From contig NZ_MOBR01000002.1 of the NCBI RefSeq assembly GCF_003732705.1, forward strand, positions 62,001-126,000: a stretch of 64,000 nt of DNA, read 5' to 3'. The notes beneath the pieces were generated by a model. That model was given only the letters and a program-made list of their open reading frames with translations. It had not been told where the DNA came from and did no database searches. The DNA is from Pseudomonas frederiksbergensis. GTDB taxonomy: Bacteria; Pseudomonadota; Gammaproteobacteria; Pseudomonadales; Pseudomonadaceae. Every line of letters starts with the position of its first letter. Positions within the stretch are counted from its first letter, which is position 1. This document shows, piece by piece, positions 3,271 through 59,241 of the stretch. Both the position numbers and the translations under genes were made by a program.

Positions 3271-3369
3271 GATTGCTCCTGCGAAGGCCGGGAAGTTTAC
3301 CTTGTACCGAGCCGAACGTCAGGGGTTCACGGCCGAGCGGGCACTTGATCGCGCCTGACGCCACACGGT

Positions 3370-3502
3370 GATCGTTCCCACGCTCCGCGTGGGAATGCCG
3401 CCGGGGACGCTCCGCGTTCCAACTGCACCACCGATGTCGCGCCTGACACCGAGGTGACGCAGAGCGTCACGGCTGCATTCCCACGCAGGAGCGTGGGAAC
3501 GA
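3370..3502. repeat. Long palindromic intergenic repeat, copy 1 (family 3)
   Basis: The element starts GATCGTTCCCACGCTCCGCG and ends with the inverted counterpart GCGTGGGAACGA. An inner pair (GGGACGCTCCGCG versus GACGCAGAGCGTC) makes it a long composite hairpin. Other copies: 3516, 19039, 21169, 26478, 55715. Together with copy 2 it fills most of the gap 3271-3662, where I see no gene. Confidence 0.85.
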
Positions 3503-3515
3503 AACACCGACGCAC

Positions 3516-3650
3516 GATCGTTCCCACGCTCCGCGTGGGAATGCAGACCGGGACGCTCCGCGTTCCAGCCGCACCACCGATGTCGCGCCTGACACCGAGG
3601 TGACGCAGAGCGTCACGGGCTGCATTCCCACGCAGGAGCGTGGGAACGAT
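3516..3650. repeat. Long palindromic intergenic repeat, copy 2 (family 3), tandem with copy 1
   Basis: This is nearly identical to 3370-3502, including the inner segment ACCACCGATGTCGCGCCTGA, so the pair arose by tandem duplication of a whole element. It lies downstream of the DUF3077 gene at 3663. Confidence 0.85.
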
Positions 3651-3662
3651 CATCGCTTAGCC

Positions 3663-3986
3663 CTACTCCGGCGACCGAGCCCGCAACCGCCGCCCAACCA
3701 CATCCAGCACATCACACCCATCGCGCAACGGAATGGCGCAGAGCAAGGCAAAGTCACTGAGAATCATCGAATCACACTCGATTGAACCGCGCATGGACAG
3801 GTTCTCAAGCACCTGGGTAACGGCGCGGATTCGATAATTGGCGGCGTCATACAAGATATCGAGCGGGGCATGGGTATCGACAAATAAGGTAGGCATCTCA
3901 CAGCAATTGCTGGTGAGTGCCATGTAGCGGTTATCGGGATGGGGGATTGGTTTTTCGTAGGGTGGGTCGGGGTGAAGAGTTTTCAT
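3663..3986 (-). CDS. DUF3077 domain protein
   Basis: The 107-aa protein has no known function. Its C-terminal 75 residues are similar to the second DUF3077 protein of this window (58987-59241): both have the series APLD-hL, YRIR, LEN, LRDGCD-hhDVhGRRL. Such small proteins are common and multi-copy in Pseudomonas. No catalytic motif or membrane segment is seen. The start at 3986 has a weak AAGG site at 4000-3997, ten bases upstream, and that site lies at the 3' end of a strongly structured leader (see 3997-4126), so translation may be controlled. Confidence 0.8.
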   Translation of the reverse strand: MKTLHPDPPYEKPIPHPDNRYMALTSNCCEMPTLFVDTHAPLDILYDAANYRIRAVTQVLENLSMRGSIECDSMILSDFALLCAIPLRDGCDVLDVVGRRLRARSPE

Positions 3987-3996
3987 ATTTTTTAGA

Positions 3997-4126
3997 CCTT
4001 GGTGGATAAATTGAAGCTACCAACGGCCTTTCCTACGGGCTTGGGTGGCAGCCGTGCGCGGGAGTAGGAAACTGAGGAAATCCACCAAACTCAGCCACGC
4101 CGAAGCGTGTCCCGCGCAAAGCTGCC
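3997..4126 (-). promoter_or_regulatory. Candidate structured RNA leader with two possible pseudoknots, upstream of the DUF3077 gene
   Basis: Read on the minus strand, 4126 to 3997. Stem P1: 4121-4126 with 4047-4052 (6 bp) and 4110-4117 with 4056-4063 (8 bp), separated by a 3x3 loop. Inside P1: hairpin P2 at 4109-4096 with a UUCG tetraloop and 5-bp stem, then hairpin P3 (4094-4090 with 4076-4072). The P3 loop holds TTGGTGGAT (4088-4080), complementary over 9 bases to ATCCACCAA at 4007-3999. The strand 4071-4064 (TTTCCTAC) is complementary over 8 bases to 4036-4029 outside P1. Both extra pairings cross P1. The 9-base pairing covers half of the AAGG ribosome site at 4000-3997. The pairings are seen directly; a regulatory role is inferred. 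Confidence 0.6.
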
Positions 4127-4334
4127 GCGAACGATCTTACGGACACGAATTAAGTGCCGCAATCAAACGACAGCGCTGATGCGCGGTGAATCTCCAAGGG
4201 TTCCTACACCCTGCCACTGAATTCGCAGTGACAGCCAAAGACTATCCACCGATCTCACATCGCACCAGTTCATGGAAGCCGCCACAGCTTGAAGGAAACT
4301 TCCGATGGACTTGTCCGGAAATTTCGCTCCTAAA
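4127..4334. other. Non-coding remainder of the gap 3987-4334
   Basis: I see no gene here. It would hold the promoter of the structured leader above and the 3' end of the 4335-4712 transcript. Short frames on either strand have no family resemblance and no ribosome site. Confidence 0.5.
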
Positions 4335-5273: not shown

Positions 5274-8200
5274 CTATTTAATCGGATACAACGTAAACGG
5301 GACACCCGTTCTTCGATCGAACTTCATTTCTATTCGATTCATTTTAACCAGCCTTGGATTCCCTGGAGACGCCGGATTAGGAATATATCCCTCCCCCGCT
5401 CCCGGAAATTTCATCCTCACAATATCATTGTTCTTTTTGTCCTTCCCTGTAAAAGGTGGGAGCCCATTAGCCGCTCTGGTTGTTGCCAATTCATATGCAT
5501 CGAGCATCAATTCCCAGCTATAAAATCGAGAACTTGGATTACCACCTCGATTCCGAGGAGTCTTACCTGTAATAGGATCCGTACCGTCAATAGCTCGCTG
5601 CTTAAACTTTGCATCTGGAACTTCCGGATCATGCTTCCCAACCATATGCATGCCCTGATCGTCGTTCAATTTTTTGATTTTGGCCTTGGCGACCTCCCGA
5701 GCACTTAACTTAGTCTTCGGTAACGCTGGCTCACCCTCATCAACCCTAGCGCCAGTCGTATCCCCCGGCACCGTACAACCCGATTTATTCGGCGGCGGAC
5801 AATCCCCGCTCAACCCCAACGGATCAACCCACCCCGTCGGATTCGGCGTGTACTGATACTGGTTGATCCCACCCGCCAACTTGATCGGATCCGGCGTCAG
5901 ATACCGCCCAACCTCCGGATCATAGTACCGATGCCGGTTGTAATGCAGACCTGACTCAGCATCAAAGTACTGCCCCTGAAACCGCAACGGCTGTTCAAGT
6001 TGTTCACCGGCCCCGTGTGTCAGGCGAGTGACTTTTCCGTAAGCGCTGTACTTCGCCGCCCAAACAATCTCACCACCAAAATCCGTCAGTTCTTGCGGCG
6101 TACCGAGATGATCGAGCTGATAGTAGAACGGGCAGGCTTTGCGCGGGCCTTTGCCGTCGAGCATGGCCAACGGGCGGAAGGTGCCGGGCTCGTAAACATA
6201 GCTGCGGTAGTGTTCGCGGCTGCTTTCGGCGACGACTTGGTCGCCTTGCCAGAAGAATTCGGTGGTTTTGCCGTCGATGGTTTTGGCGATGCGGCGGCCG
6301 AACGCGTCGTAGCGATATTTCGCACAGCTTCCATCGGGCAAGGTGACGCCGACTAAACGGTGTTGGCAGTCATACCGATATTCGGTAACGAGTTTTTGTG
6401 CAGTGCCGCGGCGTTCGCGGATGAGGTTGCCGAAGGCGTCGTAGTCGTAGTGCCGGTCGCCCTGCATTAACAGGCGATTGCCTTTAACGCTCGCTAAACC
6501 AGGGCGATCCTGCATCAGCAGGTTGCCCGCCGGGTCGTGGGCGAAGCTTTCCGGTGGGTCGTCGCGGGTGTGGCGGACGCGGGTCAGGCGGTTTAGAGCG
6601 TCGTAAATATAGCTGCGCTGGCCGTGCCGGGTGTCGGCGATGCTGTCGAGATTGCCGTTGGCGCTGTAGGCATAATCGCGGCGATATAGCGGTTGGCGGT
6701 GTTGGCTGACAGCGTGGGCCTTCAGGCGTCCTTGATCATCGTAGGCATATTCGCTGAGCAGCAGGCCTTGTTGGCGCTGTTGCTCACGACCGAATTGGTA
6801 CTGGTGGGTGGTGAGTTGCGCGCCGTTGAGGTCGATGGCGCTGAGTGCGCCGCCCTTGGCATAGCGGTAATCGAGATTGCTGTTGTCCGGCAGGCGCAGG
6901 CGTTTGAGTTGGCCGCAGGCATCGTAGCTGTAGCGCAGGGTCCCCCAGCCTTGGTGCTCGGTGATTAGCCGGCCCTGTTTGTCGTAGGCAAATTCCAGCG
7001 GATGGTCATGGCCATCATCCACGCTGACCAGGCGCCCGAGGCTGTCGTAGCGATACTCGACCTTGATGCCATCTGGCAGCGTCTTGACCAACAGCCGACC
7101 GGCCGAATCCCGCCCGTAACCGGTGACCAACTGCGAGCCGTCATCACCGAATTCGGTTTTCTCCAGCAGTTGTCCGTTAAGGTCGTAGGCATACGCCGTG
7201 CGCTGCCCGTCAAATCCGGTTTCCTGTCGGATTAATCCATTGGCGGTGTAGTCCAGCTGATATTTTTCGCCGGATTCGTTTTCAATCTCGGTCAGAAGTA
7301 GCTGTGGATTGTCGTAGCGATACTTCAGTTGCGTGCCGTCGGGATTTATCCGGCGACTGACCAAATGCAGGTCGTCGGCGTATTCATAGCGAGTGATACG
7401 GCCGAGTTCGTCCTGTTCGGCGGTGACCTGGCTGTAGGCGTTGTAGCTGAAGGCGCGGGTGGCGCCTGTAGGAAGTGTCGTCTGGATCAGTCGGCCGATG
7501 TCGTCCCACTGGTAACGGGTGACAGCGCCGTGTTCGTCCTGACTGGTAATCCGCCGCCCCATGACGTCGTAGGAAAACCGCCGTTGCCCGCCACCCGGCA
7601 AGGTTTCTTCAACCAGTTGCCCCAAGCCGTTCCAGGCGAATATGTGCCGACTGGTGTCGGGATAGCGGATCGTCAGCAACCGCCCCTGAACGTCGTAGTA
7701 GTAATGGGTGACCTGCCCGTCCGGATCGACGGCTTCGGTGACATCGCCCTGGGCATTACGCCGATAGGTCCACACCGCTTCGCCGCGATAGCGTGCGTGT
7801 AGGAAACCGTTGCGATATTCGTAGGCCGTTGGCTCGTCTTCCGGCGGAATCAGCGCCACCAGGCGTCCGACTTCGTCGTAGCGGTATTCGGTGATCGAGC
7901 CGAGGGGATCCTGCTCGGCGATCAACCGCCCTTGTTCGTCGTAGGACTTGAGGTGTTCGCCGCCATCAAGTTCGACCTTGCGCACCAGTCGCGCCCGATC
8001 GTCGTGGACGTAAACCTCTTCACTGCCATCGATGTTCTGAACGGTGACACTGCCTTCGTCATCCCAGACATAACGCGTGTCCATCTGCGAAAACGACGCC
8101 CAATGCCGGACACATCGCGCAGCCTTGCCGGACTTTTCCCACTCCCAGAAGAAACTCGCCCCACCGGCCAACTGCCGTTGGAGGATTACGTGCTGATCGT

Positions 8201-10034
8201 CGTAGTCATAACGCTCGCTTTCGCCGGCAGCATTGATGGCGGCGATCAGTTGACCGCGCTCGTCGTAGTCGTAACTGACCAGCGTCTGCTCGGTGTGCCA
8301 GGCCTCTCCGAGGGTCTGGGCCGGGCGGAATTGCTGGTAGTCGATGGCGATTAAATGGCGGCGCACGTAGCGCAACAGCAAGGCGCGGCCGGCGCCGTTA
8401 TCGAGACGTTGAATGCGTCCCTGACGGTCGCGGGTAATGCGCAGTCGGTTGTCGTACCCGTCGCTGATTGCTGTCAGAAAACCGTTATGAAAGTGGTAAA
8501 AACGGGTTTCTTCGCCGGCCTGGGCGAGGATCAGTTCCTCGGGTTCATCACCCAGATAAATCGCTGCGCGCGACAGGCTGTTGTGGATCGCTGGGCGCTC
8601 ACTGCTCGGCAGCGGAAATGTCGTACGTCGGTTTTCGTGGTCGATCCAGATGACGCTGTCGCCATCGATTTCCAAGCGATGCGCGAGGGTATGGCTCCAG
8701 CCAAATCCGAGGCCGCTGTCGATCTCGGCGGCGCTGGTGCGGTAGAGCCGGGTGAAGTCGAACGGCAGCACGCCGTCGAGGGTGCCATCGGTCAACGTCA
8801 GCAATTCTTCGCCGGTGACCATCGACACCGGGCAGCCATTTTTACAGGTCAAAGGCCCGCAATCGGCGCTGTCACCGTTGGGGTTTTTCGCTTGGTCGGG
8901 GGCGTCGTCGTGGTGCTCGTCTTTCTTCAACGAAGCGTTGCGGCGGGCGCTCCACTTCAACTGCATCCGACCTTTTTTCATGCCGGCCGCGACGCCCCGG
9001 GCGGCGACTTTTTTGTAGCGGTCAACGTAGCTGATGAAGTTATTGATGATCGTGAAGACTGCCTTCACCAAACGCAGAACAGCGCTCAGCAACTGCGCGG
9101 CTCGATTACCTAGACGCATCGTCAGATAAGCGATACCGGCCCCTGCCGCGGCGAACGTCAGGACGATGCCAATCAGGATGTCGATCAACAGTTCCACGAT
9201 AAAGGTCGACACGGCTTCGGCGGTTTTACCGGCGATTTCGCTCGGCGGCAGCATGTCCAACCAGAGGCTGGCACTGCGCACCAGCAAGCACAGCGCTGCC
9301 TCGTCACTGGCCAGCAATTGGGCTTTTTCCATAACGTGCGGGGCGGTTTGCGCGAGGTCCTTCAGCGCTGCGGCGCTCTCGCCCAACCGCTCGGCAAACT
9401 TTCCGGGATCCTTGAGAATCTCCGACAGCAGGCTGATGCCGTCCCACACGCCTTCGATGGCCGCCCAACTGCCCGCGAGCATTCCATTGCCTACAGCCGC
9501 CGACGAAGATTCCGACCACTTCGGTTTAAACGTCTTCCACTCATCATGCAGCCACTGTTCAAGTTCCTTCGTCAGCCCACCGTAGGAAGAGAACAGTTCA
9601 TCCACTTGCTGCGGCGTGACTTCGCTATGAACGCGAATGCGGTAGAGCTTCCCCTCCTCCCCTCTGAATGTCCCTTTCCCGTTTTCACCCAGCGTAACCG
9701 GCGTCACCTTCCCGCCATCCGCCGCGATCACATCGACCTGGATATTTCCTACAGGGATGTCATAGACCGATTCGAACTTGCTCTCGATTTCGAGCACTCC
9801 ACCCTTCGGGCACTGCACGACGGTGGAGATAAAGTCATCGTCGCCAGTGCTCACGATGGTGCTGGAATTGCCGAACCGAACGATCCGCTCCATCCCCATC
9901 AGCGAAGGCAAATCCGCCGCATGACTGGCCGTGTCCGCCGCCCGGCTGAACCAGTGCTTTAGTTGTTCGCGATAAAGAGAAAGGGTGTTTGGAAAACTGT
10001 CGAGCTCCTGCTCGATGCGCACAATCTGATCCAT
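5274..10034 (-). CDS. Rhs/YD-repeat polymorphic toxin, type VI secretion cargo
   Basis: The protein has 1586 aa. Residues 1-160 are an N-terminal domain without a PAAR motif. A hydrophobic pair of helices lies near residues 277-325. A DUF6531 module begins at about residue 400 (CGPLTCKNGCPVSMVTGEE), followed by some thirty YD-type repeats (xYxYDxxGRL) and the core-ending DPLGL at about 1404-1408, where Rhs shells are cleaved. The last 178 residues are the variable toxin. They carry GMHMVGKH (histidines at about 1463 and 1468), a helix around SRFYSWELMLDAYELA, and a final RIEMKFDRRTG-x-PFTLYP, which resembles the end of EndoU/BECR-fold RNases. The RNase guess is tentative. Its start overlaps the DUF4123 stop by one base, so it is co-translated with its adaptor. 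Confidence 0.9.
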   Translation of the reverse strand: MDQIVRIEQELDSFPNTLSLYREQLKHWFSRAADTASHAADLPSLMGMERIVRFGNSSTIVSTGDDDFISTVVQCPKGGVLEIESKFESVYDIPVGNIQVDVIAADGGKVTPVTLGENGKGTFRGEEGKLYRIRVHSEVTPQQVDELFSSYGGLTKELEQWLHDEWKTFKPKWSESSSAAVGNGMLAGSWAAIEGVWDGISLLSEILKDPGKFAERLGESAAALKDLAQTAPHVMEKAQLLASDEAALCLLVRSASLWLDMLPPSEIAGKTAEAVSTFIVELLIDILIGIVLTFAAAGAGIAYLTMRLGNRAAQLLSAVLRLVKAVFTIINNFISYVDRYKKVAARGVAAGMKKGRMQLKWSARRNASLKKDEHHDDAPDQAKNPNGDSADCGPLTCKNGCPVSMVTGEELLTLTDGTLDGVLPFDFTRLYRTSAAEIDSGLGFGWSHTLAHRLEIDGDSVIWIDHENRRTTFPLPSSERPAIHNSLSRAAIYLGDEPEELILAQAGEETRFYHFHNGFLTAISDGYDNRLRITRDRQGRIQRLDNGAGRALLLRYVRRHLIAIDYQQFRPAQTLGEAWHTEQTLVSYDYDERGQLIAAINAAGESERYDYDDQHVILQRQLAGGASFFWEWEKSGKAARCVRHWASFSQMDTRYVWDDEGSVTVQNIDGSEEVYVHDDRARLVRKVELDGGEHLKSYDEQGRLIAEQDPLGSITEYRYDEVGRLVALIPPEDEPTAYEYRNGFLHARYRGEAVWTYRRNAQGDVTEAVDPDGQVTHYYYDVQGRLLTIRYPDTSRHIFAWNGLGQLVEETLPGGGQRRFSYDVMGRRITSQDEHGAVTRYQWDDIGRLIQTTLPTGATRAFSYNAYSQVTAEQDELGRITRYEYADDLHLVSRRINPDGTQLKYRYDNPQLLLTEIENESGEKYQLDYTANGLIRQETGFDGQRTAYAYDLNGQLLEKTEFGDDGSQLVTGYGRDSAGRLLVKTLPDGIKVEYRYDSLGRLVSVDDGHDHPLEFAYDKQGRLITEHQGWGTLRYSYDACGQLKRLRLPDNSNLDYRYAKGGALSAIDLNGAQLTTHQYQFGREQQRQQGLLLSEYAYDDQGRLKAHAVSQHRQPLYRRDYAYSANGNLDSIADTRHGQRSYIYDALNRLTRVRHTRDDPPESFAHDPAGNLLMQDRPGLASVKGNRLLMQGDRHYDYDAFGNLIRERRGTAQKLVTEYRYDCQHRLVGVTLPDGSCAKYRYDAFGRRIAKTIDGKTTEFFWQGDQVVAESSREHYRSYVYEPGTFRPLAMLDGKGPRKACPFYYQLDHLGTPQELTDFGGEIVWAAKYSAYGKVTRLTHGAGEQLEQPLRFQGQYFDAESGLHYNRHRYYDPEVGRYLTPDPIKLAGGINQYQYTPNPTGWVDPLGLSGDCPPPNKSGCTVPGDTTGARVDEGEPALPKTKLSAREVAKAKIKKLNDDQGMHMVGKHDPEVPDAKFKQRAIDGTDPITGKTPRNRGGNPSSRFYSWELMLDAYELATTRAANGLPPFTGKDKKNNDIVRMKFPGAGEGYIPNPASPGNPRLVKMNRIEMKFDRRTGVPFTLYPIK

Positions 10035-58151: not shown

Positions 58152-58566
58152 GTTTAGCCTTCACTTACACCTTCAACAAACCGCGTATCCGAACCGAATC
58201 GAATGCAGGTATCTCGCTGTGAATACAGCATCCTACAGGGTCAAACCTTATACAAAAGCAATATCACAAACACGCTTAACAATCATTAGATATTATTTCA
58301 CAAACGACACCCTGCACGGGTGCCTGCTGATATCCCCCACAACACTTATAGAAACTTCCGACAACTATTTCTTACAGCCGATTCTTACAGAAATTGCCAG
58401 ACAAGAAATGAATCATTTAATTACATAGATGTTCATTTATTTGATTAATAAAAAAGAATTTTCTGGTAATAAATCTACCGCGCCACTCCTCTTTGTACGC
58501 AGCCCACCAATCTTGGCTGACGACATAGGGCTAGGTGGTTTCTTAAATTTTTAAGGGAATTCCAAT
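58152..58566. other. AT-rich control region with two palindromes, no gene
   Basis: Inverted repeats GCTGT-GAAT-ACAGC at 58216-58229 and CACCC-TGCAC-GGGTG at 58308-58322 are candidate operators for the XRE gene. Before 58567, AGCCC (58501) / GGGCT (58528) and CTTAAA / TTTAAG (58542-58555) could fold next to the AAGGGA ribosome site of the DUF6124 gene. I see no coding sequence. Confidence 0.5.
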
Positions 58567-58950
58567 ATGAAAAAGATCCCCCCAGCTCCGCCGGAGTCAG
58601 CAAAGCCATCTCGCGCCGATGACATCGATTTGTCCAAACTCTCCGATATCACCGAACCCCTCGTCAGCGCACGCCTGCGCAATCCAAACCGCCCTGACCC
58701 CGTCAGCCATGTCTTCACCATCCTCCCGAACGTCGACAAGGAAACCCTGCTTTGTCACGCCAGTGAAACCCTCGCCTCCCTGAATGTCATGAGCACCGAC
58801 CTTGCTGGCGACCTGGAAAGCTCTCGCCGCAATGTGGCGCTGGCCATTCAGCAACTGGCCGCGATGGCCGAGTTGCTGGTTAACCGGGCGCTGGACCTTC
58901 TGGAGCTGCCCGATGGTTCACGTGGAACCCCACCCACCAGTAATGCTTGA
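58567..58950 (+). CDS. DUF6124 family protein
   Basis: The 127-aa protein has no known function. It has a proline-rich N-terminus (PPAPPESAKPS) and a helical C-terminal part (LLCHASETLASLNVMSTDLA, then QQLAAMAELLVNRALDLL). Small proteins of this family are common in Pseudomonas and usually stand beside DUF3077 genes, as here. Ribosome site AAGGGA lies about 9 bases upstream. Confidence 0.75.
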   Translation: MKKIPPAPPESAKPSRADDIDLSKLSDITEPLVSARLRNPNRPDPVSHVFTILPNVDKETLLCHASETLASLNVMSTDLAGDLESSRRNVALAIQQLAAMAELLVNRALDLLELPDGSRGTPPTSNA

Positions 58951-58986
58951 GCTATCGCGGTCTTTTCCAAATGGAGGTTTTTTGTC

Positions 58987-59241
58987 ATGGATAGATATAT
59001 GCCCATCACCGGCATCGACTGCACCATCGCGTCGCTGGTGATCGATACACAGGCACCGCTGGACGTATTGCACGAAACAGCGGCCTACCGCATCCGCACC
59101 GCAACTCAGCTGCTGGAGAACATCGCGTTTGGCGAAGGGATTCATAGTGAGCTGGCGCGGGTATTGGTGACATCACTGCGCGATGGTTGCGATTTGATGG
59201 ATGTGATCGGGCGACGATTGCAGAAGCAGGTTTCTGCTTAG
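58987..59241 (+). CDS. DUF3077 domain protein
   Basis: The 84-aa product is a paralogue of the protein at 3663-3986 (shared APLDVL, AAYRIRTATQLLEN, LRDGCDLMDVIGRRL). It follows the DUF6124 gene after 36 bases with GGAGG upstream, forming a two-gene operon ended by the terminator at 59247. Function unknown. Confidence 0.8.
   Translation: MDRYMPITGIDCTIASLVIDTQAPLDVLHETAAYRIRTATQLLENIAFGEGIHSELARVLVTSLRDGCDLMDVIGRRLQKQVSA

Follow-up and report, generated by a model that had tools for sequence, protein, structure and literature searches.

C4 antisense RNAs with matching target sites precede small genes throughout Pseudomonas and are predicted to control them

On the minus strand of the window (the whole 64,000-nt stretch of Pseudomonas frederiksbergensis DNA analysed here), a strongly structured RNA element lies just before a small gene, and it raises the question of what kind of RNA this is and on what it acts. 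The initial annotation had described five helices and read them as a riboswitch, a sensor or an RNA of no nameable class. An Rfam search supplies the name, as C4 antisense RNA (RF01695) matches at 4132-4041 on the minus strand with 51.2 bits (cut-off 45) over model positions 1-87, the full length of the model. The same search gave nothing in favour of a riboswitch or sensor: no riboswitch family was matched, and the loops are the variable part of the element. As a class assignment, a riboswitch or an unnamed RNA is ruled out by the C4 match, and from its sequence the element is nearly certainly a C4 antisense RNA. The annotated record of phage P1 has a1, b1, C4, a2 and b2, followed by icd; in the window the five RNA parts follow one another as they do in P1, which together with the Rfam match indicates that the observation was right and that the class has a name. 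The predicted parts, from 5' to 3' on the minus strand, are as follows.

4239-4246, minus strand: -10-like element (GATAGT / TAGTCT), predicted promoter directly 5' of a1/b1, with a TANNNT position conserved across modules
4193-4245, minus strand: c4-a1b1-like region (RF03163; match at 4245-4193), 44.5 bits and E 3.4e-10, just below the gathering score of 46.7
4201-4207, minus strand: a1, 7 nt complementary to a'
4184-4195, minus strand: b1, complementary to b' over 12 nt, three of the pairs being G-U
4041-4132, minus strand: C4 antisense RNA (RF01695), 51.2 bits; mature RNA expected at ~4044-4126 if processed as in P1
4110-4126, minus strand: 5' arm of P1, whose positions 4126-4110 pair with 4063-4047 (7+9 pairs, single mismatch between); RNase P cleavage is expected at the GG, 4126-4125
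4096-4109, minus strand: P2 hairpin, 5 pairs, UUCG loop
4071-4095, minus strand: P3 hairpin, 6 pairs
4080-4089, minus strand: b', the P3 loop, complementary to b2
4064-4071, minus strand: a', the junction strand, complementary to a2
4047-4063, minus strand: 3' arm of P1
4029-4036, minus strand: a2 target, 8 bp with a' (4071-4064 with 4036-4029)
3998-4007, minus strand: b2 target, 10 bp with b' including one G-U (4089-4080 with 4007-3998), overlapping the AAG of AAGG
3663-3986, minus strand: 107-aa target gene, 405 homologues, product predicted to form short strands and two long helices

All five helices are present. The comparison of folding energy with shuffled sequences is by itself weak evidence (z -2.35; 5 of 200 shuffles equal or better), and for this sequence-based reading the comparative evidence is decisive. 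Across the 34 C4 copies aligned from the own genome, 95.7% of stem cells are paired, compared with 85.8% after shuffling, and both sides change in 15 of 23 pairs; neither value was reached in any of 500 shuffles, which ignore the relatedness of the copies. P1 and P2 covary across these copies, and the three stems (P1, the tetraloop-capped P2 and P3) are present in the window. Covariation across homologous loci, which the initial annotation had itself proposed as the check on its helices, was thus observed. We accept the helices because of the Rfam match, the covariation of the C4 stems and the cognate pairing over 61 modules described below. The 'double pseudoknot' of the initial annotation needs a different reading: its 8- and 9-bp pairings exist, but they are a'-a2 and b'-b2, that is, an antisense RNA adjoining its own target. 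Its view holds, as far as sequence can tell, that the RNA is compact and structured and probably acts on the downstream gene by way of the ribosome site. b2 overlaps the AAG of the Shine-Dalgarno sequence AAGG (4000-3997), with 11 nt from its last base to the A of the start codon (ATG at 3986). Between the target gene and rsmJ, 3340-3660 is occupied by repeated GTTCCCACGC...GCGTGGGAA palindromes that look REP-like by eye; a REP-like nature of the RNA itself is rejected, as these palindromes (~3340-3660) lie outside it.

Features expected of transcription and processing were also recovered around the C4 copies. A TANNNT motif 31-40 nt before a1 was found in 56 of 58 modules (counted without L044b, L045a, L045b, L065, L080, L084, L096 and L097), compared with 12 of 290 control windows of equal width. 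Full sigma-70 promoters were in no excess over shuffled sequences (7.23 vs 7.07 matches), and none was found in the window. The GG at the expected RNase P cut (alignment columns 7-8) is invariant in the 34 aligned own-genome copies (34/34). A terminator between a1/b1 and C4 was predicted in 14 of 61 cassettes (a1/b1-C4-a2/b2, ~250-300 bp) and in 53 of 610 shuffled ones; the window has none, and a short decoy RNA is therefore not supported there. At L021, L037, L094 and L095, which include chromosomal and phage loci, the first frame behind b2 is short (28-66 codons) and a1/b1 is separated from C4 by a terminator-like hairpin, as in P1.

Given these parts, we consider it very probable that the window encodes a C4 antisense RNA with matching target sites, predicted to keep the adjacent 107-aa gene translationally off. 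By analogy with P1, a single transcript would start directly upstream of a1/b1, RNase P would cut before the GG at 4126 and free an RNA of ~83 nt, and a' and b' would bind a2 and b2, respectively, in the leader of the same or sister mRNAs. The pairing would mask the Shine-Dalgarno sequence and block the first ribosomes. The gene would be made only when C4 is scarce, for example when the cassette has just arrived in a C4-free cell, and a1/b1 may serve as a decoy or feedback site for C4.

The predicted pairing was evaluated by setting a' or b' against its cognate and against swapped partner regions and scoring the longest stretch of complementarity. In 61 modules, the cognate a'-a2, b'-b2, a'-a1 and b'-b1 combinations all beat the swapped ones on average (0/5000 permutations in each). 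This count is without L044b, L045a, L045b, L080 (a duplicate of L054) and L096 (a wrong-strand reading), and the initial listing of a/b pairings was without the duplicate L045 and the second tandem C4s; L037, L046 and probably L077 were kept with mis-set start codons, which lowers their own pairing scores. For single arms of the 61 C4s, the own a2 was best or tied for a' in 47 and the own b2 for b' in 26. When both arms were combined within the own genome (also without L044a), 27 of 34 C4s scored strictly highest with their own target, and 29 of 34 targets did so with their own C4. Another target scored equal or higher in sum for 7 of the 34 modules, L037 and L046 among them, these two probably because of their mis-set start codons. 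C4 does not fit its gene at L169 and fits poorly at L138, L148, L188, L191 and L204. L169 lies near a contig end, where a C4 and a target of different specificity would be a recombinant or an assembly error.

The fit also holds among close relatives of the window locus, defined by a protein at least 84% identical to that of the window. Their 31 distinct b' loops score a mean of 8.00 with their own b2 and 5.21 with swapped partners (0/5000), and for 19 of the 31 no swapped b2 scores higher than the own one. For a'-a2, the result over the 31 distinct-b' loci was the same (0/5000); restricted to distinct a' types the test is weak (78/5000), because there are just five such types. Sequence comparison thus strongly supports the predicted control of the adjacent gene by C4. 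The same data bear on a cis-acting riboswitch or sensor, by which the leader would fold as a double pseudoknot on one molecule and a signal would alter ribosome access. The antisense arms and their targets do sit within 130 bases of a single strand and may be able to fold with each other, and pairing in cis within the molecule may occur before processing. This reading is nonetheless very improbable, as the element matches an antisense family, down to each part of that family's anatomy, and the pairing loops vary (31 distinct b' among 78 close-relative loci) where a ligand pocket would be conserved.

To see how C4 RNAs are placed relative to genes, we inspected the own genome, which has 38 C4 matches (37 above cut-off) and 34 a1/b1 matches at E 0.1 (11 above cut-off). 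Positions show a C4 immediately ahead of 16 of 20 DUF6124 matches and of 5 of 6 DUF3077 matches. Partly judged by eye, 34 of the 38 C4s precede DUF6124, DUF3077, window-like or Bro-N genes: 16 a DUF6124 gene, one (L041) a cut-short frame that is DUF6124-like by eye, five a DUF3077 gene (with a leader frame in between at L021, of 36 codons, and at L037, of 28 codons), nine a window-like gene and three a Bro-N gene. The remaining four make up two inverted copies of a tandem pair and have no such gene. Among the nine window-like genes, four are weak members (21-25% identity), and two of these four, L023 and L028, were missed by the homologue search of relatives. Two-gene operons, with DUF3077 or DUF6124 first and a window-like gene second, were found at L032, L039 and L046.

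Several further arrangements were noted. On the plus strand of the window, 58550-59226 carries a DUF6124 gene (~58711-58896) followed by a window-like gene (~58990-59226); searches of the window gave no C4 match upstream of this operon, which is possibly a decayed or C4-free copy. L044 and L045 (G000 contig C7, at 6.3 kb and 58.7 kb) are inverted tandem C4 pairs 52 kb apart without a small target gene. At L059, a PrrF RNA (3273-3421) lies directly behind a DUF6124 gene that lacks a C4. Upstream of the window cassette, the minus strand at 5274-10034 encodes an Rhs-repeat protein and then two small genes of unknown family, which may be its immunity genes. An Rhs core occurs within 3 kb at 1 of 36 own loci, the window itself, and an association with Rhs is thus not indicated.

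The arrangement extends across the genus. C4 was detected in 110 of 119 Pseudomonas genomes (own included), with a median of 13 per genome among the matches listed (up to 33 per genome); two genomes scored more fully had 42 and 47 matches. In other genomes of the class, 11 of 228 have C4, with 1 to 4 copies each. Of the best 30 of 89 C4 loci in two genomes (G005 and G062), 27 lie ahead of a gene assigned by HMM to one of the three families (one at a distance of 491 nt) and two more precede a Bro-N-like frame by eye, giving 29 of 30 in sum. Outside the genus, none of the 14 C4 loci examined (of 17 matches listed) has one of the three families within the next 700 nt. Among 79 named loci for close relatives of the window protein, 78 have a C4 upstream; of 29 other loci with a relative (L061-L089), 24 have one above cut-off and 5 do not. 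Pseudomonas genomes carry up to dozens of C4-gene pairs, mostly matched to their own small gene.

The copy number of DUF6124 follows that of C4 over the 119 genomes (Spearman 0.885), and none of the nine C4-free genomes has DUF6124. These counts bear on the proposal that chromosomal C4s are relics or guards of phage immunity, silencing the antirepressor mRNAs of incoming phages, with the small genes as passengers. The C4 of P1 serves immunity according to the accessible part of one report (PMC8198154), three own-genome C4s precede Bro-N genes, and the DNA of one C4 module matches 10 phage records, with C4 found by Rfam in 3 of 3 of those checked. We consider the proposal unlikely, since C4s track the adjoining target and DUF6124 copies rise and fall with those of C4.

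What, then, would the antisense RNA control in the window? The initial annotation had assigned the downstream gene to DUF3077; that assignment is rejected, as the 107-aa protein matches no Pfam family at E 10 and no NCBIfam family at E 1, and its profile compares with that of DUF3077 members (PF11275) at E 0.18. Searches at E 1 likewise gave no PHROGs family, no solved structure by sequence and no defence family. A single protein family for all targets is not supported by the profile comparisons either, with window-like proteins at E 0.18 against DUF3077 and E 0.063 against DUF6124, while DUF3077 and DUF6124 compare with each other at E 9.6e-4. The named organisms among 120 listed of the 405 homologues are Pseudomonas, or entries given as unspecified gammaproteobacterial or metagenomic, and the protein was found in 20 of 57 relatives searched, all 20 within the 36 genomes of the same genus. 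Some database entries of the family (P0020, P0021, P0036 and others) are named 'Short-chain dehydrogenase', an unlikely name for a 107-aa protein with a two-helix model. Structure prediction gives the window protein two short strands besides two long helices (pLDDT 85), and a DUF6124 member two long helices (pLDDT 83). A fold search with the window model returned nothing convincing (lowest E: 2.6 for PDB, 1.1 for viral models). The window protein had no match in phage or plasmid records, and a DUF3077 member had none in phage records, though this member does match PHROG 36471.

In type I toxin-antitoxin systems, an antisense RNA lies over the ribosome site of a toxin mRNA. The C4 arrangement recalls these systems, and the small protein might accordingly harm the cell with C4 as its antidote, making the pair hard to lose. 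Icd, the product of the first gene behind the C4 of P1, is reported to block division by binding FtsZ (PMC11897509, accessible part). Against this, the alignment of the window family with P1 Icd covers one column only and 9 of 119 genomes do without C4, so that we rate a toxin-antitoxin-like unit as rather doubtful, at about one chance in a few.

The gene after the window target gene is rsmJ, with no icd or ant at the locus. rsmJ falls within the available downstream sequence at 32 of the 79 named loci, 31 with a C4 and one (L155) without, and the window is arranged alike. This fixed site allowed the C4 to be compared with its surroundings in 26 of these loci plus the window (27), with loops within 4 edits taken as one type. 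The identities of the gene and of rsmJ are correlated (r 0.69, 0/2000), while C4 type is unrelated to the identity of the downstream gene (3225/5000 permutations as high) and not significantly related to that of rsmJ (672/5000). Cassette identity follows C4 type (mean 0.91 vs 0.75), as expected since the cassette contains the loop. Between L159 and L186, for example, identity is 0.90-0.99 before the cassette, 0.60-0.89 inside it, 0.91-0.98 in the gene, 0.66 just behind and 0.96 farther on. In profiles of eight pairs of different type, the upstream flank is alike in four and has diverged too in four, and the cassette is therefore not the sole variable stretch.

The closest relatives of these cassettes are in part found elsewhere. 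Nine of 33 rsmJ-site loci have their best cassette match at a locus whose downstream flank is a different one, compared with at most 4 of 33 for the best gene match. The nine exclude L138, L191 and L155 (best match L188, which shares the rsmJ-site flank) and L170 (best match L163, with too little flank). Two of seven donor loci (L158 and L172) have a stretch of upstream flank in common with an rsmJ-site locus, and four have clearly other Pfam neighbours: a PEP-utilising enzyme (L185), an MFS transporter (L174), CheW (L153) and a multicopper oxidase (L133). As the cassette differs between close relatives at a fixed site, movement between sites by recombination is inferred, and by this sequence evidence cassettes were probably exchanged in place.

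Two explanations of this exchange were considered. Neutral gene conversion would copy cassettes among paralogues without selection, and pairing would be kept because the whole cassette moves together. The matches at other-flank loci (9/33, at most 4/33 for the gene) and the stronger fall of identity in the cassette than in the gene favour it. It accounts for the swapping, but not for kept pairing or the genus-wide retention of modules, and it is compatible with an antisense function; we give it somewhat less than an even chance. A more speculative idea, which we hold with less confidence, is that Pseudomonas cells possess a private code in which each C4 silences its own small gene, with as many as dozens of mutually orthogonal locks. 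Swaps of whole cassettes between sites and strains would re-key this code at fixed sites, and selection would keep its C4s unlike those of neighbours, phages and paralogues. A phage immunity switch would thereby have become an RNA system for telling self from non-self.

Earlier work had placed C4 in phages, as the antisense RNA of a prophage switch, and had described many copies in Acinetobacter with their targets left open (PMC5320573, in its accessible text). New here are the 38 own-genome copies, the spread through the genus, the cognate fit, the cassette that differs at a fixed rsmJ site, and targets that can likely be read directly as small cellular proteins, unnamed or in DUF families, recurrent in Pseudomonas. 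The collection makes available many natural antisense RNAs paired with the targets they fit, and at the rsmJ site one can measure how regulatory specificity changes without regard to the gene that would be controlled. In the literature covered, to which most subscription journals do not belong, no paper was found in the available text that ties C4 to DUF3077, DUF6124 or window-like families. One paper on DUF3077 mentions, in the portion available, a P. putida pseudogene (PMC9630843).

Among known systems, the immI operon of P1/P7 (c4-icd-ant; RF01695) is alike in the fold, in the order a1, b1, C4, a2, b2, start codon, in similar spacing and in the position of b2 over the ribosome site. It is unlike the window-type copies in that these are chromosomal and many and precede target genes of other families, with neither icd nor ant at the window locus. 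The c4 and c4-a1b1 motifs were listed in Proteobacteria by Weinberg and others (PMC2864571, in part), and the region upstream of the window C4 matches c4-a1b1 (RF03163; E 3.4e-10), yet at 44.5 against a cut-off of 46.7. In Gifsy-1, the accessible description of IsrK-orf45-anrP (PMC4825925) has a short RNA from the same promoter pair with the downstream leader and change translation of an antirepressor-like gene; this short RNA of the upstream part raises downstream translation in trans, and this hints at a role of a1/b1 as a decoy for C4. There, we infer, orf45' corresponds to C4. The isrK model matches the window a1/b1 region weakly (26 bits, cut-off 50), and unlike Gifsy-1 the window has no terminator to yield a short upstream RNA. 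A Burkholderia table, as far as accessible, has isrK and C4 as neighbouring candidate RNAs (PMC4603805). The closest parallel in number is the Group 1 sRNAs of Acinetobacter baumannii (PMC5320573, in its available part), with many C4-like RNAs in one genome and a variable a' region; these are expressed, and their reads begin at a GG motif where they are apparently cut. Their targets were left open, whereas the Pseudomonas C4s were compared with, and mostly fit, the gene directly downstream, and this offers a hypothesis for the Acinetobacter RNAs as well: the target may be the gene next door.
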